DNA of 26,392 nucleotides from a virus, in the IMG/VR virus record IMGVR_UViG_3300032246_002097, positions 1-26,392 of that record. One strand, 5' to 3'. Made by a program: the position numbers and the translations under genes. The first letter of the stretch is position 1. The number at the start of each line of letters is the position of its first letter. Shown one piece after another: positions 2 through 20,390 of the stretch. The notes beneath the pieces were generated by a model. It was not told the DNA's origin, did not search any database, and saw nothing but the letters and a program-made list of their open reading frames with translations.

Positions 2-1429
2 TATAGACATGTTAAAACTGTTCATGGATGCTTGGAATCGAAAGATTTTTATAGATTATCAGACTTTGATAGAAAAAAATTAAGAAATAAATATAATTTA
101 CCACAAGATGCATTTGTAATCGGTTTCGTTTTTAGAAATCAATTAAGGAAAAGTGTTCCTAATCTATTAGAAGGATATGCTTTATGGAAAAAAGAAAATC
201 CAGATATTAAAAATACATTTTTACTTCTTCATACTCATTGGGGAGAAGGATGGAATATCCATAAATTATGTCAAGAACTGAATGTAAACCCAGCAGAAGT
301 ATTAACTACATATATATGTAAAAATTGTGGTGAGTACGAAATTAAGAATTTTACTGGTCAAGATTTAAATTGTAAGTATTGTGGAGCAGAAAAAAGTCAA
401 ACTACTACAAATGTTAGTATTGGAGTTACAGAACAGCAATTGAACGAAGTTTATAATTTAATGGATGTATATTGTCATCCTTTTACTAGTGGAGGACAAG
501 AGATTCCAATTCAAGAAGCCAAACTTACAGAGCTAATTACTTTGGTTACAAATTATTCATGTGGAGAGGAAATGTGCGAAATGGACGCTGGATCTATCCC
601 ATTAGAATGGTCTGAATATAGAGAGCATGGCACAGAATTTAGAAAAGCTTCTACATATCCAACTTCTATAGCTAAGAATTTAAATAAAGTATATAAAATG
701 TCTAAAGCTGAAAAAATAGAAATGGGTAAAAAAGCAAGAGAGTGGACAATTAAAAATTATTCAGTAGAATCGGTCGGTTCAATTATAGAAGATTTTATAG
801 ATAAATGCGAAACTACAAATTTTGATTTTTCAAATTCTCAAGTCGAAAGAAATCCAAACGCAGTTGTACCAGAAATAAAAGATAATAAAGATTGGATTTT
901 ATATCTATATCATAACATTCTTTGTCTTAAAAATATAAATGAAAATGACTCTGGATTTATCTACTGGATGGATCAACTCGCAAAAGGTGCTTCCAGAAAT
1001 GATGTAGAAGCATATTTTAGAAAAGTTTCAACAGAAGACTTGAATAAAAATAAACAAATTCCATTTGAAGAAATTTTAGGTAAAGATGATGAAGGCAAAA
1101 GAGTACTATTAGTAATGCCAGAAAGCGCAGGAGATGTATTCATGGCGACAAGCTTGCTTCCATCAATTAAAAAAATGTATCCAGAATATAATATATATTT
1201 CGCCACAAAACAAGAATACTTCTCTATTTTGAATGGTAATGAATATATTTATAAAACTATTCCCTATATTCAACAAATGGATAATCTGATGTGGCTGGAG
1301 GGAGCTGGTGATCATAAAGGATTTTTTGAAATTGCATTCTTGCCTCATGTTGGCACTCAAAGAGTCTTAAATTATCTTCATAATGGAAAAGATAAAATAG
1401 AATTTAATATCAAAAATTTTAATATATAA
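2..1429 (+). CDS. Multidomain glycosyltransferase (GT4, zinc ribbon, DUF4214-like, GT9 N-half); 5' partial
   Basis: The reading frame is open to the left edge, and the residues before the first possible start (TTG at 32) continue the GT4 pattern, so the gene begins outside the window. From about 32 to 800 it reads as the nucleotide-sugar-binding half of a group 1 (GT4) glycosyltransferase, with the Rossmann pattern around FVFRNQLRKS and the acidic QEIPIQEA segment near the end. An inserted zinc ribbon, CxxC-x14-CxxC, lies at 317-382. About 890-1050 resembles DUF4214 (LYxNIL...GxxYWMDQLxxGxS). From 1095 the sequence is the N-terminal half of a GT9/heptosyltransferase fold (GDVFMATSLLPSIK). The protein stops at 1427-1429, just where the GT9 C-half should start. 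It probably transfers sugars to virion or host surface glycans; the substrate is not readable from sequence. Family calls are good, function is inferred. Confidence 0.82.
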   Translation, partial: YRHVKTVHGCLESKDFYRLSDFDRKKLRNKYNLPQDAFVIGFVFRNQLRKSVPNLLEGYALWKKENPDIKNTFLLLHTHWGEGWNIHKLCQELNVNPAEVLTTYICKNCGEYEIKNFTGQDLNCKYCGAEKSQTTTNVSIGVTEQQLNEVYNLMDVYCHPFTSGGQEIPIQEAKLTELITLVTNYSCGEEMCEMDAGSIPLEWSEYREHGTEFRKASTYPTSIAKNLNKVYKMSKAEKIEMGKKAREWTIKNYSVESVGSIIEDFIDKCETTNFDFSNSQVERNPNAVVPEIKDNKDWILYLYHNILCLKNINENDSGFIYWMDQLAKGASRNDVEAYFRKVSTEDLNKNKQIPFEEILGKDDEGKRVLLVMPESAGDVFMATSLLPSIKKMYPEYNIYFATKQEYFSILNGNEYIYKTIPYIQQMDNLMWLEGAGDHKGFFEIAFLPHVGTQRVLNYLHNGKDKIEFNIKNFNI

Positions 1430-1430
1430 T

Positions 1431-2609
1431 ATGCATATTCTAGAACAATACGCTTTAAATTGTGGAGTATCTATCTCTAAACCATACATAAGTGAAGAAT
1501 TTTTTCCGCTTCCATTTGAAAAATATATAACATTACATCCAAAAGGAAAATTCCCATCCAGAGAATATGATTACTGGGAAGAAGTAACTACCAATTTATT
1601 TCCTATTCTAGAAAAACATAATATTAAAATAGTTCAAGTTGGTGGAAAAGAAGATCAAGTCGTACCCTTTTGTTATCCAACTAATGGACAAACAAATCTA
1701 AATAATTTAGCTTACTTAGTTAAAAATTCATTACTCCACTTAGGAGTAGATAGTCTTCCAATACATTTTGCTTCTGCATTTGGCAAAAAAATAGTTGGAC
1801 TTTATTGCAATATGTATCCTAATCAATCTGCCCCATATTGGTCTTCTTCAGAAGATTGCGATCTATTATTTGCGGATTTAAAGGGAAAAAAGCCATCCTA
1901 TGCACCTTTTGAAAATCCAAAAACAATCAATACTATAAAACCAGAAGATATTGCTAATAGTGTTCTTAAAAAATTAAATATTAATGAAACCATTAAAAAT
2001 AAAACTATTTACTTTGGAGATGCTAGTCATATAAGATCAGTGGAAATTATTCCAGATCACGTTCCTAATTTATCATCATTTAATATAGATATAGCAAATG
2101 TACGAATGGATTATTACTTTAATGAAATATTTTTATTTAATATACTAAGCGTATACAAGACTAATATCTTAACCGATAAAGCTATCAATATAAATGAATT
2201 AGTTAAATTTAAAAATAATATTTTACATATTTATTTTATTATTAATGACGAATCAAATTTTGATATTAAATTTATAGAAAATTTAAAAAATAATGGAATA
2301 AAATTCTCTATATTATCTTTTATTCCAGAAGATAAAATTGAAAAAATTAAAATACATACTATGGATTTTTGTAATATCATAATTAAAGATCCTCAACCTA
2401 ATAAGGAAATTATTAAATCATTCAAAGCTAATAATTTAAAATTTAAATCAAGTAAACTTTTATTAAGTCAAGGAAAAATGTATCCATCTTTTCAAAATTA
2501 TAAATCAAATACAAGCTATAATCAATTTTTAACCGAAGATTTTGATTTCAAGGAACAAGGCGATCTCTATAAAGAATTACAAAATTTTTATATATTTAGT
2601 ATTGACTAA
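1431..2609 (+). CDS. GT9-like glycosyltransferase C-terminal half with unknown C-terminal region
   Basis: The 392-residue product starts one base after the previous stop (TAA-T-ATG), with no visible Shine-Dalgarno sequence, so translation is probably coupled. Residues 1-180 match the C-terminal, donor-binding half of GT9 heptosyltransferase-like enzymes: ITLHPKG, then IKIVQVGG, NLAYLVKNS, and LGVDSLPIHFASAFGKKIVGLY at about 104-126, where GT9 enzymes carry a conserved Asp in an xDSxxxHxA motif. It lacks the N-terminal Rossmann half, which is instead at the end of the upstream gene, so the two products probably form one enzyme. Residues 190-392 are rich in Asn, Ile and Lys, contain alternating beta/alpha patterns, and match no family I recognise. 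The real enzyme could also be a single fused protein if a frame error exists at 1400-1430. Confidence 0.75.
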   Translation: MHILEQYALNCGVSISKPYISEEFFPLPFEKYITLHPKGKFPSREYDYWEEVTTNLFPILEKHNIKIVQVGGKEDQVVPFCYPTNGQTNLNNLAYLVKNSLLHLGVDSLPIHFASAFGKKIVGLYCNMYPNQSAPYWSSSEDCDLLFADLKGKKPSYAPFENPKTINTIKPEDIANSVLKKLNINETIKNKTIYFGDASHIRSVEIIPDHVPNLSSFNIDIANVRMDYYFNEIFLFNILSVYKTNILTDKAININELVKFKNNILHIYFIINDESNFDIKFIENLKNNGIKFSILSFIPEDKIEKIKIHTMDFCNIIIKDPQPNKEIIKSFKANNLKFKSSKLLLSQGKMYPSFQNYKSNTSYNQFLTEDFDFKEQGDLYKELQNFYIFSID

Positions 2610-2636: not shown

Positions 2637-3437
2637 ATGAGTCCAAAAATTAAAGCAGAAGATAACACAATTTCAATCGGAAGTTCAGAATTATTTGAAT
2701 CGGTAGTAATCTCAGAGCAAAAGCAAGAAATTGCTCAAGTAGTGCCACCAAATGTTTTCACAAGAAATAAATATGGCCTTATTGAAGATAAGGGGCTCAA
2801 TTATATATTTAATGATGATGGTACAATTAATTGGCGTAAAATGGTCAAAACAGAACATCTTGTTCCGAATAGACAGAAAACACAAGAAACAGACGTTTCA
2901 AAGCTTCAAGATAAAGACCTACTTATTCTTCTTGGAGGAATAAAAGAACTGGCTCAAATTCGCGGATATACAAGTGTTGAGTATAAAGTTGTCGCAGCAT
3001 CTGAAAGTTATTTTGCAACAAGCTGCAAGATTACTTGGCTTCCAAATTATGAAACTGGTGGTAAAGAGATTATTTTTGAATCTCTTGCCGATGCCACAGT
3101 AAATAATACAAAAAGTTTTGCAAGATTCTTTTTAGCTGCAATTGCGGAAAACCGCGCTTTCGTTAGATGCGTAAGAAATTTCTTAAAAATTAATATCGTA
3201 AGCCAAGAAGAACTTGGAGATGCTAAACTAATAGATGATTCAGTATCTCAAAATGATAATCCAACTTCTCCTCATACTCTCTTAGAAAAGGTAATGAAAG
3301 ATAAAAGCATTAATTTTGATCAATTAAAGAAAAAATTAATTAAAGAAAAATTTGATAATGCAGAAAACTTGAATTCAATCTCAGATATTCCAAAGGCTAA
3401 AATCTTTGAACTTATAGAGAGAATTAAAAAAGTTTAA
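2637..3437 (+). CDS. Probable single-strand annealing protein (Rad52/ERF-like)
   Basis: The product has 266 residues. The central region (about 80-190) has the layout of phage annealing proteins of the Rad52/ERF type: a helix, a beta-meander containing ATSCKITWLPNYETGGKEIIFES, and a helix with the sequence AIAENRAFVRCVRNFL at about 168-183. That helix mirrors the AExRAxxRAxRxxL signature common in Sak and ERF recombinases. The C-terminal 55 residues are a charged helical tail ending in KIFELIERIKK, as often seen in partner-binding tails of such proteins. If correct, it anneals complementary ssDNA during phage recombination. A purine-rich AAAAGG lies at 2616-2621, rather far (15 nt) from the ATG. 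It is placed between glycosyltransferase and tail genes, away from any visible replication genes. The family assignment rests on one motif and overall pattern only. Confidence 0.5.
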   Translation: MSPKIKAEDNTISIGSSELFESVVISEQKQEIAQVVPPNVFTRNKYGLIEDKGLNYIFNDDGTINWRKMVKTEHLVPNRQKTQETDVSKLQDKDLLILLGGIKELAQIRGYTSVEYKVVAASESYFATSCKITWLPNYETGGKEIIFESLADATVNNTKSFARFFLAAIAENRAFVRCVRNFLKINIVSQEELGDAKLIDDSVSQNDNPTSPHTLLEKVMKDKSINFDQLKKKLIKEKFDNAENLNSISDIPKAKIFELIERIKKV

Positions 3438-4231
3438 TTTAATATATAGGCAGAAAAGCTAACAGAAGCCTTGCCATTATCAGCAACACTTAAATTTAAA
3501 CTTTCATTATTTTTAATTACATTATTGAAGTTGAATGATAATACATTAGTTAAGGTAGAGTAATTTTTAAAATTTATTTGTATTGATCTTATATCATTAT
3601 TTGTTAAAAATGCTCTCATATTAGACATCATATAATTATCAATATCTAAGTCGAAAGCAAAATCTATTTTTACAGGATACTTTATAAAAACTTCCGTTGG
3701 ATAATATTCACCAATATTATATTGAGCAACTCTTTCTGAAGAAATTGTCATATCAAAAGAAAGTAGCCTATTAGTTAAAGCTTCATTAAAAGTTATATCA
3801 GTATAGCATAAGTCATATGGTGTTATACTATAATTTATTGAATTATTTGTTATTATTCCAGTTTGCTCTGCGAATTGACCATAAACATCAATATCAGCCC
3901 TACAAACGATAGGATTATCAATTGCAGTTTTAATATTATATCTAGTTAGATAACCACTATTAAAATTTAAATATTTATTAGCATATCCAAAAGTTCCACT
4001 TATTACATTTTGTCCAGTAAAAGCTAGAATTGGGTCTACATTTGAAGGTATATATTCTATATTAATAGAAGCTTTATTTTGATCATTTACTAAAAAATTA
4101 AAACCTGTATCTTGTATAGCTATAGAAGGAGCTATATTTGTATCATAGGATACTCCTAAAGATTGAACCCCAGAAATAAACTGTCCATTTAAGTAAATAT
4201 TTTGATTTTGTTTAGAAGAAAAGATAGGCAT
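3434..4231 (-). CDS. Tail-tube-like protein (putative paralogue of the 22766-23908 product)
   Basis: The product has 265 residues. Its C-terminal ~110 residues parallel the major tail tube protein encoded at 22766-23908. Here LSFDM at 157-161 is followed by an Arg, a Gly at 174 and YPVKIDF at 185-191; the tube protein has LSFDL, Arg, Gly272 and FPLTVTL. Both end in a hydrophilic turn followed by a beta strand (ASVSFSAYI here, VTLTFSAQV there). The N-terminal parts also share a beta strand, then a spacer, then IxIEYI / LDFSYL. I infer a tube-fold protein, perhaps a ring between tube and tip, since it is transcribed divergently from the gpM homologue. The start at 4231 has no Shine-Dalgarno and lies only 8 nt from a GTGTAAT motif, suggesting a very short or absent leader. 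Its stop shares TTAA (3434-3437) with the convergent gene. It could be a Dit-like or decoration protein instead. Confidence 0.5.
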   Translation of the reverse strand: MPIFSSKQNQNIYLNGQFISGVQSLGVSYDTNIAPSIAIQDTGFNFLVNDQNKASINIEYIPSNVDPILAFTGQNVISGTFGYANKYLNFNSGYLTRYNIKTAIDNPIVCRADIDVYGQFAEQTGIITNNSINYSITPYDLCYTDITFNEALTNRLLSFDMTISSERVAQYNIGEYYPTEVFIKYPVKIDFAFDLDIDNYMMSNMRAFLTNNDIRSIQINFKNYSTLTNVLSFNFNNVIKNNESLNLSVADNGKASVSFSAYILN

Positions 4232-12051: not shown

Positions 12052-13524
12052 ATGAAATTAAACTTAAAAGATATAAATATTAACTGGAATGTATATCCGA
12101 ACATATCCTCTTTTGTAGAGAATAATTTTGATTTAATGTCGAATGTAAGTTTTAATGTAAAAATACTCGATGAAAATTTAATTATAGTAAATCAAAAAAA
12201 TAATATTCCTTCAGCAAAAATAGATAAGGCAGAATCATTTAATTTACACTTTGCTCATGATAATCCATTTGCTTTTGTTAATCCAATGCCTATTGAATTA
12301 ATGGTTTCTAGTCCAAAAAGAATTTTAGAAACAAGTTACTTTAATCAAAATATAAAACAAGTCATTGTACAAGATTTTATTTATTCATTTGAAGAAAATG
12401 CTAACGATTATTATTTAAAATATCAAAAAAATGGATTCTTTAAAAAATTAAACTTTTTTGTTGATTATAATAATTCTGATACAAAGCAGAATATAGATGT
12501 AGAATATCAAACGATAGATATACAAAAAACTCCGATGCAAAATATATTCACTAAAATATTTAAGTCAGAAGATAATGTTACCTTAAAATTTAAAATAAAT
12601 TTTGAAGAATTTAAAAAAACAGATATTAGGTCATTATTTATTATACCTTATATTCATGAAGGAGAATTTAAAACTCAATTAAAAGAAATGTATATATCTG
12701 ATATTGAAAATAAATGGCTTAATAATTCTGATAGTACTAAATTATTAACTATACCTTTTTCAGATAATTTTTCAATTGTTCAAGATATATTATCTTTAGA
12801 AATAATACCATTAAATAATGTTCAAACGGAAATAATTGAGTTCTTTAAAAATAGATTAAGTGCAACAGCTTTACTAGATTTAGTTAAAGAATTTTTTATA
12901 GATCAATTATATAAAACTAACTTAGTTTATAGTGAAAATTTATTAAATAAAATTGCTGGATTTTATCAAGGATATATATATTTATTCAACAGCGAAAGTT
13001 GGAATTCCATAAGCTGGCCCCCAACAGAGGAAGAAGTTATTGAAATTAAATATTTAAAATATTTTCCTCTTGCTGTTAAAGATGGCATAGAAACAGTTTC
13101 ATTAGAAAAAGAATTAGAAATTCAATCTTCAGTTTTAGAGGTTCATGATAATACTATTCAAAGTAATCTTTTAGGATATAATATAGAAAATTCATTTAAA
13201 GATGTTAAAGATGATATTATTTATTTTAAATCTAATAATATAAAATCTGTATCAATTTTAAACATAGAAGAACTCGAAAATAAAACTAAAATATATTTAG
13301 AATTTGTTACAAATTTTGATTTATTAAGTAATGTTTATATTGATAGTATTAGCAATGGATTATCTTTTATACAGAAATATTATAAAAATATAAATGATCA
13401 AAATTATGCGACTTTATTATTTTGTTATGAATATGATAATAATTTAACTAATAATAGCTCTGAAACTAAAGCCCACGGAATTCAAGGTAAAAAATTAATT
13501 AATTTTAATATTAGGCTTTATTAA
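12052..13524 (+). CDS. Large hypothetical protein, last gene of the tail-tip operon
   Basis: I prefer the ATG at 12052, 17 bases after the gpJ-like stop, giving 490 residues. An in-frame TTG at 12016 would overlap gpJ and lacks a ribosome binding site. The protein is rich in Asn, Ile, Phe, Lys and Asp with many short alternating hydrophobic strands, for example IYLEFVTNFDLLSNVYIDS near the C-terminus. No signal peptide or membrane segment is visible. A helical patch around the middle (EIIEFFKNRLSATALLDLVKEFF) is the only clear long helix. No family is recognised. Position directly after the gpJ homologue is where lambdoid phages encode fibre or tip accessory proteins, so a virion role at the tip or receptor binding is plausible but unproven. 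The stop codon shares TTAA 13521-13524 with the opposite tape-measure gene. Confidence 0.7.
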   Translation: MKLNLKDININWNVYPNISSFVENNFDLMSNVSFNVKILDENLIIVNQKNNIPSAKIDKAESFNLHFAHDNPFAFVNPMPIELMVSSPKRILETSYFNQNIKQVIVQDFIYSFEENANDYYLKYQKNGFFKKLNFFVDYNNSDTKQNIDVEYQTIDIQKTPMQNIFTKIFKSEDNVTLKFKINFEEFKKTDIRSLFIIPYIHEGEFKTQLKEMYISDIENKWLNNSDSTKLLTIPFSDNFSIVQDILSLEIIPLNNVQTEIIEFFKNRLSATALLDLVKEFFIDQLYKTNLVYSENLLNKIAGFYQGYIYLFNSESWNSISWPPTEEEVIEIKYLKYFPLAVKDGIETVSLEKELEIQSSVLEVHDNTIQSNLLGYNIENSFKDVKDDIIYFKSNNIKSVSILNIEELENKTKIYLEFVTNFDLLSNVYIDSISNGLSFIQKYYKNINDQNYATLLFCYEYDNNLTNNSSETKAHGIQGKKLINFNIRLY

Positions 13525-16500
13525 CTAGCCATAGTATATTTTGAGCTACTCAGTAATCCGCCAGGTCTTTGTTGCTCATTGATAACTTTAACTACTTCTG
13601 TTTTAATTTTTAGAGTTAATTCTTTTGCTTGTTCTATATCTTTTCTATTTTGTTCTGGATCATTAGATTTGCTTGTTTGATTTTGAGAAGAAGAAGATTC
13701 AGATGGAGCTTGAGTATTACTTAAATTAACTGTTATGTTAATATTATTTGATGTACCTGCATTAGTATTATCTACGGTACGAGAGTTGTCTTGAGTTGAA
13801 TAACCATCAACTGTACCTCCGTTAGCAAATTTTCTTATTCTACCACTATTTAAATCATCAAAGAATTTTCTCCCATAAGTATTAACTGCATCTTTTCTCA
13901 TTACATATTCACCACCCATAAGCATAGCTGGAATATCGTCCTTACCAGATGATCCACCATTAGCAAAACCCATAAATCCACCATCTTTAACATATGTAGC
14001 ATACTTGTATGGATTAACATTATAATCTCCAGCTGAAGTTTGATTAGCTGGAGTAGCTCTTCTTACCGTTTGAGAACCAAAACGATTTCCTGCCATAAAT
14101 GGATTTCCACCGCCAGGACTTAAATATTTTTGTAATGCTGGAGCACCATATGTAGAAAATGCTCCTCCTGCTATTGACATACCAGCTTGTATAAATGCTC
14201 CCTTTAAATTATTTTCTTGTTGTTTATCGAATGCATCTCGTTGTTCTTGATTAATTTGATCTATTCTTCTTTTTTCTTCTCTATTAGCTTCTATAGTTCC
14301 AATAATAGTTTCTCTATTTCTCTCGTAAGTGTCTATTCCCTCTTTTAAATAACTAGCTATCATTTCTCTATTTTGTTGATTTATTTGATTTTGAGGATCA
14401 TTTTCATCAAATAATGCCATTTGAGATAATAATGGATCGACAAGGTAAGTTCCAGCTGTAGCATAGTTACTATCTGCTGTATAAAATGCTGCTAGATTCG
14501 CTCTAAACGCACCACCAGAAGCAGTATTTGAAGATGCTAATCTAGAAAATGCATCACTATAAGTAACATCTGAACCTTCATATATACTAGCTAAAGATCT
14601 TCCTAATTGCTCTTTGAGATTAGCGTCTACTACTCTGCCAGTATCAGTTTCAGAAGCAGGATTTTTATTGGAATTTCTTAAATATTCTGCAATTAAATCT
14701 TCACTTATAGGATCACCAACACCACCCAAAGATCCTCCCCCAGCTAAACCTACAATCCCACCTTGATTTAAATTATTTAAGAATCTTGTTCCATATTTAT
14801 TAACAGAAGATTTTTTAATGACATATTCACCTTTGCTTAACATTGCTGGAACATCATCTTTTGTTCCAGATCCACCCAATACTTTTCCTCCTGTTGAAAA
14901 TCCCTGAATATATCCACCATTTGCACGACCTAGTGGAGATTTAAAAGCACTTGGTATACCTCCAACTGAACTAAATAAAGAATTAAATAATAGATTAGTA
15001 CTCATTTCTAGAGCCAATTGCTGTATTCTTTTACTTATGTTTGTTGCCATTGTTCTAAACGCATCTCCCACTGTTTGAGTCCCATCTATAACTGATTGAA
15101 ATGCGTTGTTGAATTCGCTTTTCATTGTTCTTGCTGTGTCGGAAGCAATTCCATTTAAATCTCTAAATGCATCTTGTGTTCCATATGTCATTTCATCTGA
15201 AAATGAACTAAACATATCCCCTATATTTCCTCCGCCACTTCTTATTCTGTCTTCTCTTGCTTTATTTTGTAATTGTTTATATTCATCTGCAAATATAGTT
15301 CCTTCTTTAAATGCAGCTATTGCTTGTAAACTAGTTGCAGCTGCAGATGCAGCATAATTCAATTTGACTATGTTATCTCCAAACTCTTTTGTAAGTTCGG
15401 TTTCTTTAGCTCTATAAGCATTTAAAGCTTCACTTCTTAAAGTTGCATCTCCAATTGAAGTTCCTAACTCTACTAAATTTTTAGTTGTCATACTAGCTTC
15501 TGTGCTAGTTTGTTGAATTGCTATTTGTAATTCTGCTAATGTTCTATCAGTTAAATTTCCAGTCTCTTTAATTTCTTCTGCAGCTTTTTTATATGTTTCT
15601 CCAAATTTTCTTTCTAATTCAATTCTTTTTCTTGCATCTGGTGTTCCTCCCAATATTCCTTGCAATGCTGCTGTATTAGTCCCTCCAAGAATATTACTCT
15701 GTTTAAATCCTGCTCCTGCATTTGTATTTAAAAAGTCATTTATTAAATTTCCAAAATCACCTTTTTGAATAAAAGCCGCTGCTTGTTGTCTTTGAGCTTG
15801 ATCCTCCGAAAACAATTTTTGTGTTTGAGCGCTTAAATTAAGTAAATTTAATTGTGCATCTGCTAATTTTTTAAATGTTTCATCTACTATTTCAGATGAT
15901 TTTCTTAAATTACCAAAAGTTTCTTGTAAGGCCTTTCCTTTTTCTTCTAAAGATTTGTTACTATCTAATATAGTTTGTATTGAATTAGCTAATTCCAGAG
16001 CTTTATCTTTTTGTAATTTTCCAGAATCTCCTAATTGAAGAATAAAGTTTTTTAATTCTTTTCCAGAATCTTGAATTGATTTTTGTAAATCTGCTTCATA
16101 CATTTGTCTATTTACGTCAGTAATTTTCGCTTCTCCACCTAAATTACCTGCAGTCCCCGTGAACTCTGTCTTTATGTTGCTACCAAAACCAACAGGACCC
16201 GCATTTACTTGTGGAGAGGTTGTATTAAATCCAAATATATCATTTTTTGCAAATTCATCTATACTCATTGTAGCTTTATCTGCTGCGATTGATGTTTGCT
16301 CTATAGATTTAGCTATTTGATCATTTATTCCATAGTATTTTTCTGAAGCAATTGTTAATGCGTCAAATGATTTCAATAATCCACTTTGTTGAGATATTAA
16401 ATCTCCAATATATTCTCCATTTGTTGTTTTTATTGATCCCAATTGTCTTAATGTCTCGGTTAAATCTAAATTTTTAGCTCCATCTTTAAGTTGTTCATTG

Positions 16501-19500
16501 GTGGTTTGTATGAATTGATTTACAAAATTATTAGAAGCAATTTCATCATTCGCTCTTTGTATTGCAGATTGTAATTGTTCTTCTGTACCAGATAATCCAG
16601 CTAAAAGTTCTTTTTGAATATCTTCGCTTACAGATGATAAAATTCTATTAAATGCTGCAGATCTTTGACCTTGTAGTTTAATTAGTTCGTTTGGCGTAGC
16701 TTTTATTGCTCCAGCTTCTACTCCAGCAATCTTTTCTCTTGAAGTTAAAAACGCCTGAACATCCTCAGAAAATCTTGCTACTTTATTGCCAGATTCTCTT
16801 GAATTTTTAGCAAATTCTTCTGATCTGTCATTTAATTCTTTAAATGCCTTAGTTAAGCCAATTGTAGCTCCAATTAACCCGCCAATAGCTGCACCCCATG
16901 GACCAAATAAAGCTCCTGTGCCAGCAAATGCTGCTGTATCACTTAAAGCTGTTGTTCCAAATTTTGCATATTTATTATTTGGCGCAAATTCCTGAGCAAT
17001 TTGACTTACTATTGGAACAGCTATACTTGCGCCAATTCCAATTCCTTGCAATCTTGAGGCTGCATCTGCTCTTCGTTCTCTCGCTGCTTCTAATCCTCCT
17101 CGGGCTACTTCTCCTGCTCTTCCTCCTTTTGCAGATCTTCTCTCTAATTCTTTAACCGCTCTAGATCCTGTTATTAAATTTCCACTTGCAGCAACTAATG
17201 CATCTGTTTCAATAACTAATTTTTGATAAGATTTGTCTGCGCGATTTAATGTATTTTTTACTTTTTCAGTACTAGATTCAACTAAATCAAATTCTCTTGA
17301 TAGTTTAACTAATTCCATTTGAGCTTGATCAAAACTTATTTTTCCATTATAAACGCTTCTTGCAAGAGCTGCAAAAGCTGCATTAGCTTCCTTACTAGCT
17401 GGGACTTGAACTGGACCAGGTTCAGTATGCTTGGCTGAATATAAAGCGAAATTTGGAATTAAACCTTTTGCTGCACCCGCTCTACGAGCACCATTTAATG
17501 AACCATATCTTGAAATTCCTTGAGACAATCCTCTTGGTTCATCTTTAGTGTTATAAACCCCCAGACCACTAGGATTCATATTAGAGATTAAAGAATTACT
17601 TCTTCCAACTCTTATGGAATTTGCATTTACTCCAGCTTTCTTTTCTCTATTTATTGCTTCATTTAAAGCATTTGCAAAATTAGGAACAAATCCTCCAGAA
17701 AGATATTCAGAGTATGGAAGACTTGGATCAAAATTAGAATTATAAGCTTTTTTAATAATACTAGCAATTGCTCCAGGACTTCCAGTTAATTTTGCATCTG
17801 CTTTTTGTAATTGTTCTCCAAATTTAAATCTCTTTTTAAAATTACTTGTAGCAGGACCTGCTTCTTCGAAATCAAATGGTCTATTATCTTCATCATCAAT
17901 AGATCTTATAAATTGTTTAGGAGTTTTTGTTGCAAGAGCAACTGCGGCTTCAAATATAGAACCTTCTGCTGTAGATGGTATTAATTTTTTGCCCTTTAAT
18001 GCACTTCGAACATCATTTAATGCAGCTGGAGAAGATTCTTCATCTCTTAAAACTGTACCAAGATACTTGTGAGTTAGACTTGCTATTGGATCAAGAAGAG
18101 TTTCATTTACTAAATTAGTAAACTCGCTTGGTTTTTTTTCTAAATTTCCTTCAAGACTTCTAACTTGAATATTAGAAAATGTAATTTTTTTAGTTGCTAA
18201 TTCTGGATTTTTTTCAACCGCGGAATTAAATACTTTTAATGCACCAACTTTAGTCGAAGCGGTTGCGGTTGGTGAACCAGCAGATACAGAAACAACACCT
18301 AATCTTCCTTCAGTATCATAAAAACCACTATCATAGTCTTTTTGTTTTGCTGCTTTTTTCTGCGCACTTAATTCTGTTTCTGGTTTCCAATTAGCGTCTC
18401 TTGCTGCTTTTTCGCTAATTGTTCCATTAGCAATTAATCTTGGAATTTGATAATTATTATAAGATGTTATTTTTCCATTTTTATCAGCTATCTCATAAAA
18501 TGTTTTTGCAAAATTAGGAATAAGTCCAGCGCTTGCATAAGGATTAAATCCGTGTTTATCAGAAAATGATTGCTTGTAATTTCTTCCAGCTTTACTATTT
18601 TCTGGAGGCATAATTGCTGGTTGAGAAAATCCTGGCATTCTTTTTACTGTTTCTGCTGAATTATAAATAGTTTTTCCTACTCCAGGAATATTCATTTCTT
18701 TAATATTTCCTGGTTTATATCCACCAGCTAATGCGCCATAAATTTCTTGCATTACAAAATTTGGAATAAACCCATCACTTCTTGTAGTAATTTGTCCACT
18801 TTTAGTACCTACTCCTTTACCAATTAATCCACTAGTAATTGAACGAGATAAAGCTGCGGCTTGTTCTCTTACAGCGTTTTGTTCTCTTAAAATTTGTAAA
18901 ATTCTATTTTCTGTATCTAATACAGTAATTTGTTTAGATGCTATTGCTGAAAGAAGTTGTGGTTCTTGAGCAAGAATACTTGAAATTTTTCCTTCAATAG
19001 CTGCTCTATCAGTAGCTTGTTTACCAATACCTAATAATGTTTTAGCAGAAGTAGCAGCAAATTTACTTAAATCTAAAAATAATTTTCCAATAACAGCAGT
19101 TATTAAAAGTAATCCAGGACCAGATATAAAAGTAGAAAGCCCACCTAAAATTCCAGCACCAATTTTAGCCCCAACACTTTCTGAATCTTGATTAGCTAAT
19201 CCTTCTAGTATATTATTTACATTTTTTAATGTGCCTTCTATTGCTGGTTGAAAAGCCCCAGCTCCAATTTTAGCTCCTAATTGAGTAAAGTTTGTTAATG
19301 TTCTGCTTGTTAAAGCAGATAAAGTTTCATTTAACGCTTCATTTCGTTTAATAGCTTGATCAGTTGCGCTTTTTGAAGTATTTAAAGCGTTATTATAAAC
19401 AGAATATTCTTTACCCAAATCACCTAAAGCAGCTTTTAAAATATTAATTTGGAAAACACCACCAACACTTTCTGCAATTTGTGATTTTTGAGAATCAGAA

Positions 19501-20390
19501 AGAGTATCAAAAGTTGATGATAATTGTTTTAAAATATCAATTGCTGGACGAGTACTACCATCTAAATTACGAACTTCTAAACCTAAGTTTTGTAATTGAT
19601 CTAATACTTCTGGTCTAGCAACTCTTGTAAAAATAGTTTTTAGTGAGTTACCAATAACTGCACCACCTCTAGCAGTAGTTTGCTGAACACTTGTTACAAT
19701 TGCTAACAATTCATCGAATCCAACCCCTGCATCTTGAGCCGAACTACCAACTCGTTGAACTGCATTTGCCAAATCAGCAGAGCTAACAGCAAAAGCTGCG
19801 TCAACATTTGCTAATTTATTAATAACAGTTGTTGAATCTAAAGCTGTTTGATTAAAACTGTTTAATGTAGCCGTTAAAGCTTCTACGCTAGAAACGGTAT
19901 CTAATCCACTTAATCTAGTTAAAATTAAAGCATCTCTTGTTCTTTTTAATGTTTCTTCTACTCCAAGACCTTGACGAGCTAATTCTGTTGCTGCTTCTGC
20001 GACTGATTGAAATGACTGTCCAGTATCTTTGGCTACAGTAAATAAATCTGCACCAAATTTTTCTAATCCCTTTGATGTTGTATTTAATATAATATTAATA
20101 TCAGTAAGAGATTTTTCAACATCTATTGTACTTTTAATTAAACTAACAAAAGCTTTCTCTACAGCAAAAATTGATCCAGCACTAGCACCGAATGCGATAA
20201 CACGAGCATTAGAAGCATCTAATGATTTCTGGAATTCATTAGAAGCACCAGTAATTCGGCCTAATGGTTGAGTAAAGGCCTTTTCATTAAATCCTTTGAA
20301 TTTAAAATCGCGAGATAAAGCACTTTGAATATCTTTTTCAAGTTGCCTTGTATCTGCACCTACAGAAATTGTAGCTGACGTTCTTGCCAT
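13521..20390 (-). CDS. Tape measure protein (2289 residues)
   Basis: Typical tape-measure organisation: an N-terminal minor-tail core at about 80-350 (ELARQGLGVEETLKRTRDAL, SVEALTATLNSFNQ, TTARGGAVIGNSLKTIFTR), hydrophobic segments near residues 425-440, 1160-1175 and 2065-2080, long helical stretches at about 1200-1800, and the C-terminal motif around 1745-1810 (FQSVIDGTQTVGDAFRTMATNI). The middle (540-982) is interrupted by four G-[LF]-[IV]-P-N-F repeats and a PD-(D/E)XK-like domain. Two copies of a DDxPAML..GEYV element lie at 1825-1878 and 2137-2183. It sets tail length, fills the tube and is ejected at infection. Scaling from lambda gpH (about 0.15 nm per residue) gives a tail near 340 nm. 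The start follows GAAAGG with good spacing and a GTGTAAT motif. Confidence 0.93.
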   Translation of the reverse strand: MARTSATISVGADTRQLEKDIQSALSRDFKFKGFNEKAFTQPLGRITGASNEFQKSLDASNARVIAFGASAGSIFAVEKAFVSLIKSTIDVEKSLTDINIILNTTSKGLEKFGADLFTVAKDTGQSFQSVAEAATELARQGLGVEETLKRTRDALILTRLSGLDTVSSVEALTATLNSFNQTALDSTTVINKLANVDAAFAVSSADLANAVQRVGSSAQDAGVGFDELLAIVTSVQQTTARGGAVIGNSLKTIFTRVARPEVLDQLQNLGLEVRNLDGSTRPAIDILKQLSSTFDTLSDSQKSQIAESVGGVFQINILKAALGDLGKEYSVYNNALNTSKSATDQAIKRNEALNETLSALTSRTLTNFTQLGAKIGAGAFQPAIEGTLKNVNNILEGLANQDSESVGAKIGAGILGGLSTFISGPGLLLITAVIGKLFLDLSKFAATSAKTLLGIGKQATDRAAIEGKISSILAQEPQLLSAIASKQITVLDTENRILQILREQNAVREQAAALSRSITSGLIGKGVGTKSGQITTRSDGFIPNFVMQEIYGALAGGYKPGNIKEMNIPGVGKTIYNSAETVKRMPGFSQPAIMPPENSKAGRNYKQSFSDKHGFNPYASAGLIPNFAKTFYEIADKNGKITSYNNYQIPRLIANGTISEKAARDANWKPETELSAQKKAAKQKDYDSGFYDTEGRLGVVSVSAGSPTATASTKVGALKVFNSAVEKNPELATKKITFSNIQVRSLEGNLEKKPSEFTNLVNETLLDPIASLTHKYLGTVLRDEESSPAALNDVRSALKGKKLIPSTAEGSIFEAAVALATKTPKQFIRSIDDEDNRPFDFEEAGPATSNFKKRFKFGEQLQKADAKLTGSPGAIASIIKKAYNSNFDPSLPYSEYLSGGFVPNFANALNEAINREKKAGVNANSIRVGRSNSLISNMNPSGLGVYNTKDEPRGLSQGISRYGSLNGARRAGAAKGLIPNFALYSAKHTEPGPVQVPASKEANAAFAALARSVYNGKISFDQAQMELVKLSREFDLVESSTEKVKNTLNRADKSYQKLVIETDALVAASGNLITGSRAVKELERRSAKGGRAGEVARGGLEAARERRADAASRLQGIGIGASIAVPIVSQIAQEFAPNNKYAKFGTTALSDTAAFAGTGALFGPWGAAIGGLIGATIGLTKAFKELNDRSEEFAKNSRESGNKVARFSEDVQAFLTSREKIAGVEAGAIKATPNELIKLQGQRSAAFNRILSSVSEDIQKELLAGLSGTEEQLQSAIQRANDEIASNNFVNQFIQTTNEQLKDGAKNLDLTETLRQLGSIKTTNGEYIGDLISQQSGLLKSFDALTIASEKYYGINDQIAKSIEQTSIAADKATMSIDEFAKNDIFGFNTTSPQVNAGPVGFGSNIKTEFTGTAGNLGGEAKITDVNRQMYEADLQKSIQDSGKELKNFILQLGDSGKLQKDKALELANSIQTILDSNKSLEEKGKALQETFGNLRKSSEIVDETFKKLADAQLNLLNLSAQTQKLFSEDQAQRQQAAAFIQKGDFGNLINDFLNTNAGAGFKQSNILGGTNTAALQGILGGTPDARKRIELERKFGETYKKAAEEIKETGNLTDRTLAELQIAIQQTSTEASMTTKNLVELGTSIGDATLRSEALNAYRAKETELTKEFGDNIVKLNYAASAAATSLQAIAAFKEGTIFADEYKQLQNKAREDRIRSGGGNIGDMFSSFSDEMTYGTQDAFRDLNGIASDTARTMKSEFNNAFQSVIDGTQTVGDAFRTMATNISKRIQQLALEMSTNLLFNSLFSSVGGIPSAFKSPLGRANGGYIQGFSTGGKVLGGSGTKDDVPAMLSKGEYVIKKSSVNKYGTRFLNNLNQGGIVGLAGGGSLGGVGDPISEDLIAEYLRNSNKNPASETDTGRVVDANLKEQLGRSLASIYEGSDVTYSDAFSRLASSNTASGGAFRANLAAFYTADSNYATAGTYLVDPLLSQMALFDENDPQNQINQQNREMIASYLKEGIDTYERNRETIIGTIEANREEKRRIDQINQEQRDAFDKQQENNLKGAFIQAGMSIAGGAFSTYGAPALQKYLSPGGGNPFMAGNRFGSQTVRRATPANQTSAGDYNVNPYKYATYVKDGGFMGFANGGSSGKDDIPAMLMGGEYVMRKDAVNTYGRKFFDDLNSGRIRKFANGGTVDGYSTQDNSRTVDNTNAGTSNNINITVNLSNTQAPSESSSSQNQTSKSNDPEQNRKDIEQAKELTLKIKTEVVKVINEQQRPGGLLSSSKYTMAS
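13842..13982 (-). repeat. Tape-measure C-terminal repeat, copy B
   Basis: Residues 2137-2183 read GGFMGFANGG, then KDDIPAMLMGGEYVMRKDAV, YGRKFFDDLNSG. This aligns with copy A (residues 1825-1878) at almost every Gly, Asp, Pro and aromatic position. The copies are 312 residues apart, suggesting an old internal duplication. Confidence 0.8.
14757..14918 (-). repeat. Tape-measure C-terminal repeat, copy A
   Basis: Residues 1825-1878 of the tape measure read GGYxxGFSTGG, then KDDVPAMLSKGEYVIKKSSV, YGTRFLNNLNQGG. The same order of motifs recurs at residues 2137-2183. The DDxPAML..GEYV element is a familiar recurring piece of tape-measure C-termini and is probably structural. Confidence 0.8.
17445..18773 (-). 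repeat. Four G-[LF]-[IV]-P-N-F repeats within the tape measure
   Basis: The motif occurs as GFIPNF at residues 540-545 (bases 18756-18773), GLIPNFA at 622-628 (18507-18527), GFVPNFA at 900-906 (17673-17693) and GLIPNFA at 976-982 (17445-17465). Three of the four continue with A. Spacings are 82, 278 and 76 residues, so the motif separates inserted modules of different sizes. The neighbouring text is Pro-, Gly- and Asn-rich (YKPGN, MPPENSKAGR, NMNPSGLGVYN), unlike the long helices of the rest of the ruler. Function is unknown; they may be linker or docking elements. Confidence 0.75.
17750..17993 (-). other. PD-(D/E)XK nuclease-like domain inside the tape measure (residues ~800-881)
   Basis: Residues about 800-880 of the tape measure carry the spaced signature of a restriction-endonuclease-like fold: a helix GSIFEAAVAL with E814, then RPFDF with D840 following Pro-Phe, and 25 residues later ADAKLTGS with D865-A-K867. 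This matches the order GxxxE, (P)D, (D/E)xK of PD-(D/E)XK enzymes. The segment is flanked by G622LIPNFA and G900FVPNFA, which look like module boundaries. If real, the domain would enter the cell with the ejected tape measure. The call rests on motif order only; loop lengths and secondary structure were judged by eye, and the region could be catalytically inactive or a false match. Confidence 0.4.

Follow-up and report, generated by a model that had tools for sequence, protein, structure and literature searches.

Phage tape measure proteins (TMPs) are treated chiefly as rulers and DNA conduits; in siphophages they exit the tail before the DNA and aid its crossing of the membrane. The lambda tape measure adjoins inner-membrane proteins of the host during injection (PMC13190303). 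Iyer et al. described polyvalent proteins, in which one polypeptide holds many unrelated enzyme domains, including GNAT and zincin-type domains, predicted to be co-injected with phage DNA (Iyer et al. 2017; PMC5512222). In P23-45, an active virion RNA polymerase is fused to the TMP and is used at the start of infection (PMC10770324). Sle1-type actinobacterial contractile systems are reported to have TMP-related effectors with diverse exchangeable domains (PMC13277306). Injected multi-domain proteins, enzyme-TMP fusions and exchangeable TMP-related effectors are already known. Our searches of the open-access literature yielded no description of a nuclease domain within a tape measure, and none of an exchangeable nuclease-like cassette that is near-universal in phage TMPs.

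The stretch of DNA analysed here (the window) comes from a virus record and is a phage contig of 26.4 kb. Its TMP is encoded by a single open reading frame (ORF) of 2,289 aa (13521-20390, minus strand). Residues 120-311 match PF10145 PhageMin_Tail (E 6.6e-30), the protein matches many PHROG tape-measure families (best 1e-50), and the genes nearby include those for a minor tail protein and the central tail fibre J; the ORF is thus a tape measure by its profile matches and by its place among tail genes. Two glycosyltransferase-like genes (32-2609, plus strand) adjoin the tail genes, with matches to Glycos_transf_1 (E 5.1e-05, below the cut-off) and Glyco_transf_9 (E 2.6e-08, above the cut-off). 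At 3434-4231, a 265-aa ORF lies on the minus strand with plus-strand genes on either side; it has no family match and no counterpart was matched in the 15 relatives compared, whose stretches may stop short. Host assignment was rejected as unreliable, because the four genome matches are contigs of metagenome-assembled genomes (MAGs) assigned to three different phyla.

PNF motifs occur at aa 543, 625, 903 and 979 of the window TMP, and they bound an exchangeable cassette of aa 625-902 (17685-18518; this and all features below are on the minus strand), which was delimited by DNA identity to the related locus L004 and by an alignment of 48 cassettes. Directly before it stands a conserved unit of about 82 aa, from the PNF motif at aa 543 to that at aa 625 (18519-18764), which keeps its spacing in most relatives and is highly identical even in pairs with differing cassettes. 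A second conserved unit of about 76 aa follows between PNF motifs (aa 903-978; 17457-17684); it contains NPSGLGVYNTKDEP and in most relatives comes after the last cassette. Within the cassette, a beta-rich half (aa 688-745; 18156-18329) has strands predicted by AlphaFold2 (model md19f1eeccb47) at aa 688-692, 697-701, 708-714 and 735-745, with comparable strands in the model of the cassette from relative L069. The nuclease-like core (aa 800-890; 17721-17993), defined by conservation in 93 distinct cores and by predicted secondary structure, consists in order of a helix with E814 (17949-17951), D840 (17871-17873), a strand with D865-A866-K867, the (D/E)xK motif (17790-17798), and a helix with the invariant lysine K881 (17748-17750). 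By conservation, E814 and D840 are predicted metal ligands. An earlier note on this DNA had placed a PD-(D/E)XK nuclease-like domain at residues 800-881 without K881 in its catalytic set. The core is indeed located there, but that segment is just the C-terminal half of the larger unit of aa 625-902.

Compared with the described systems, some relatives of the window TMP resemble polyvalent proteins in having several putative enzyme domains of different kinds, GNAT (by Pfam) and zincin-type (by motif) among them, in a protein that would be expected to enter the host with the DNA, but the carrier here is a TMP with PNF-delimited slots, and the word 'tape' is absent from the text of PMC5512222. 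The cassette and the P23-45 polymerase are alike in that an enzyme, predicted in our case, is fused to a TMP, whereas the polymerase is one fixed N-terminal domain and the cassette is central, exchangeable and present in many phages. Sle1-type effectors (PMC13277306) share the tape-measure-like carrier and the diverse, exchangeable functional domains, although they belong to a bacterial contractile system and not to a phage virion. Polymorphic toxin systems likewise combine a conserved carrier with a highly variable toxin-like domain; in the TMP, however, the variable domain is central and not C-terminal, and no adjoining gene covaries with it.

Relatives were collected from IMG/VR contigs with the conserved N-terminal part of the TMP as the query (170 confirmed, then 425; 80 kept per search), and about 190 related tape-measure loci were fetched. 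The window cassette as the sole query found one 97% relative in IMG/VR and no match in Pfam, PHROGs, PDB sequences or 50,697 phage records. Neither a record nor an isolate with the cassette was found in the phage collection, and thus no cultured representative is known from it. TMPs of the relatives share the PNF anchors near aa 543 and 625, and at least one PNF-bounded cassette comes after them. As the 48-row cassette alignment has no conserved stretches, a 12-row subfamily was used as the query instead. The core profile matched 96 of 104 distinct PNF-bearing TMP ORFs, 91 of them once and five twice. Among the eight ORFs without a match, those of L078, L148 and L181 are truncated; L078 and L080 each contain an ExK-type cassette of a different kind; L196 and L197 have a version of the core that is still recognisable (GTIFEAS...GDFDV...GDYK); and the L117/L119 pair has diverged too far for a judgement. 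In a six-frame search of 198 loci, the core was found in 186, invariably within a PNF-bearing ORF, and 12 phage contigs of 81-172 kb had one or two copies each, all within the large TMP frame; in neither set was it ever found outside a TMP.

The earlier note had also suggested that the domain was inserted as a cassette between PNF-containing repeats, and this was directly confirmed by breakpoints at the PNF motifs in the DNA. When the window and L004 were compared in steps of 40 aa, DNA identity was 83-99% to aa 600, 63% at aa 601-640 and 41-50% at aa 641-880, and then returned to 72-87%; the drop within the cassette was likewise observed in the pairs L027/L030 and L025/L052. At the protein level, identities of the N-terminal flank, the cassette and the part after it are 92%, 24% and 75% for the window and L004, and 96%, 31% and 91% for L027 and L030. 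Flanks at least 80% identical enclose cassettes less than 35% identical in 53 of 94 pairs, some of which involve near-duplicate contigs. Thus, the cassette is swapped as one unit between near-identical flanks. The cassettes form 13 clusters at 35% identity, and dN/dS within cassette subfamilies is 0.04-0.61, which shows purifying selection and hence that the cassette is maintained as a protein.

Despite an identity of only about 20% to the window cassette, the 48 aligned cassettes keep the active-site residues. E814 in GSIFEAAVAL, D840 in RPFDF and D865-A-K867 in ADAKLTGS are all at the residues claimed, and the claimed order and spacing of a PD-(D/E)XK enzyme are borne out across the cores as E-(19-33)-D-(20-30)-[DE]xK-(12-19)-K. 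E814 is found in all 48 cassettes and in 92 of 93 distinct cores (one D), and D840 in 47 of 48 (one E) and in 92 of 93 (one E). Position 865 is acidic in every cassette (40 D, 8 E) and is D or E in 92/92 cores, while K867 and K881 are each present in 48/48 cassettes and 92/92 cores. The E/D/(D/E)xK set, whose loss in homologues would have spoken against the proposal, is therefore kept in nearly all of them. Outside the PNF ends, the invariant or near-invariant positions of the 48 cassettes are G810, F813, E814, D840, F855, position 865, K867 and K881 only, and in the median column the commonest residue occurs in merely 35% of the cores. Since the named residues together with K881, G810, F813 and F855 alone are near-invariant at such low identity, the conservation is beyond chance. 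In one of the two cores of the L079 TMP (aa 637-714), the helix E is replaced by D, which is the sole such change among the 93 cores.

The textbook PD-(D/E)XK core is alpha-beta-beta-beta-alpha-beta, and two neighbouring strands carry D and (D/E)xK. We modelled the window cassette from 48 sequences (AlphaFold2, pLDDT 82.2, pTM 0.64) and the compact relative L069 from 75 sequences (pLDDT 85.4, pTM 0.76). In both models, a beta meander comes first and helices follow; the last long helix carries E, a short bridge or loop contains D, the DxK residues form part of a strand, and the helix after that strand bears K881 or its counterpart. For the expected restriction-endonuclease fold, the models show the helix with E, the D segment, the DxK strand and the helix with K; neither Foldseek nor VIA-align found a restriction-endonuclease match. 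Foldseek searches of PDB with both models and of BFVD with the first gave nothing below E 0.001 and no restriction-endonuclease folds, and the best VIA-align hit (Z 3.2) was to an unrelated receptor. The 48-cassette profile gave only chance-level lectin and G-protein matches among PDB sequences. The cassette family has no Pfam, PHROG or PDB sequence match, which is still compatible with remote membership of a known family.

The cassette is thus like the PD-(D/E)XK superfamily in its helix E, D, (D/E)xK strand and helix with a conserved basic residue, at spacings of 19-33 and 20-30, and unlike it in the lack of any sequence, profile or fold match and in strands that precede the E helix. The strands that in a textbook core separate the E helix from the (D/E)xK strand are missing there or displaced in the models, which have strands N-terminal of the E helix instead, so that the cassette may be a permuted or derived PD-(D/E)XK member or another metal-dependent enzyme. 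In four relatives (L067 at aa 631, L079 at aa 621, L082 at aa 616 and L060 at aa 634), the core is at the N-terminal end of the cassette, and hhalign related the window-type family to these core-first cassettes with 95% probability (E 2.6e-08). Their homology suggests a permuted arrangement, possibly a natural circular permutation, and a fold permuted in this way could escape the search programs used. From its active site, we regard membership of the PD-(D/E)XK superfamily as a strong hypothesis.

The PNF frame of some relatives holds other cassettes as well. L058 has a GNAT acetyltransferase cassette (PF00583, E 8.9e-07), and a region of L080 resembles PcfJ (PF14284, E 1.3e-06); the two matches exceed the Pfam cut-off. 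By motif only, cassettes of zincin (HELFH, HEASH), HAD-like, P-loop, nucleotidyltransferase-like, ART-like, kinase-like and GHKL-like type were recognised in relatives. Extra cassettes were seen among the TMPs of L058, L059, L060, L061, L068, L074, L079, L080, L082 and L196, with up to about eight PNF-bounded cassettes per TMP, and the total length of the TMP varies with their number; the window TMP has one enzyme-like cassette. The first-slot cassettes of L059, L068 and L078 read by motif as ordinary E...PD...ExK nucleases, and hhalign found no link between the window family and ordinary-looking ExK cassettes of the same slot, for which the ExK alignment is small and poor. As a tentative generalisation, to which we give somewhat under even odds, the TMP of this widespread uncultivated phage clade could be a modular rack for injected enzymes exchanged by swapping at PNF linkers, in which one slot nearly always holds a diversifying, catalytically intact nuclease of a new, possibly permuted fold, and extra slots hold acetyltransferase, peptidase, kinase-like and ADP-ribosylating domains.

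Judged from sequence and predicted structure, the best explanation of aa 625-902 is a metal-dependent nuclease module of PD-(D/E)XK type that is injected, is diversifying and may be permuted (probability about 0.58), and the earlier interpretation as a whole is partly supported. We infer this type because catalytic-type residues alone are near-invariant at about 20% identity and because their spacing suits PD-(D/E)XK enzymes. The reading is further favoured by the swapping between near-identical flanks, the purifying selection, the confinement of the core to TMPs, the enzyme-like cassettes beside it in relatives and the precedent of the P23-45 polymerase. Weighing against it are the lack of any fold, Pfam, PHROG or PDB sequence match, the missing or displaced strands, the failure to find a DNA methylase that might protect the phage genome, and its absence from isolates in the phage collection. 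The confident models without a fold match, the unusual order of strands and helices and the extra invariant lysine would equally suit a metal-dependent enzyme of another, undescribed fold, with a convergent E/D/DxK/K site and perhaps a substrate other than nucleic acid; we consider this unlikely, as the residue order and spacing match PD-(D/E)XK and some first-slot cassettes of relatives read as ordinary E-PD-ExK nucleases, although no profile links them to the window family. The same active site might act on the phage's own DNA, by holding or trimming the genome end at the TMP or by processing the DNA on entry. Presence in nearly every TMP of the clade is as expected of an essential step, and no immunity gene adjoins, but an essential enzyme should not fall to 21-31% identity while its flanks stay at about 88-96%, and this role appears improbable.

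TMPs are structural proteins whose length tracks the number of cassettes, and a folded but inactive nuclease-like domain could serve as a tail spacer or contact DNA only. However, exactly the catalytic positions are kept while all else changes; the spacer was rejected as the main explanation for this reason, and we regard it as very improbable. Slightly less probable again is a selfish cassette of homing type, which would spread through cleavage of TMP alleles without it. The sharp replacement boundaries within one gene and the nuclease-like content are what such an element would give, but about 100 TMPs include no clear empty allele (the non-matches are mostly truncated or have other cassettes), and the PNF frame also holds non-nuclease cassettes, so homing too was rejected as the main explanation.

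If the cassette is a PD-(D/E)XK-type nuclease module, it would be a self-contained enzyme in the middle of the TMP, its core carrying the metal-binding and catalytic set E814, D840, D865-x-K867 and K881. It would ride in the tail, enter the cytoplasm with the TMP as infection starts, and most likely cut nucleic acid in a metal-dependent manner; the target may be the DNA of the host, a competing element or nucleic acid involved in defence. Recombination at the PNF-containing linkers would swap in divergent versions with the active site kept, an exchange that resembles an arms race over inhibitors or targets. That the cassette is exchanged rapidly and yet keeps its active site suggests that selection favours a change of specificity or an escape from inhibitors. 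The TMP abuts its neighbouring genes with no room for an extra gene, conservation of the upstream genes does not depend on which cassette is present, and no immunity gene that adjoins the TMP and covaries with the cassette was found. DNA methylases of the N6/N4, C5 and D12 families were absent from 15 related contigs. Possibly, the phage DNA is spared by confinement of the enzyme in the tail until ejection, by substrate specificity, or by other base modification.

Recent domain exchange in TMPs was suspected but could not be confirmed in a broad survey of mosaicism among phage proteins (PMC10684548), and the cassettes described here are clear cases of such exchange. That a module with an intact nuclease-type site is near-universal and rapidly exchanged points to a first-strike weapon or a tool of host takeover, which would arrive before any phage gene is expressed. 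The role of the TMP inside the cell thereby becomes a testable question.
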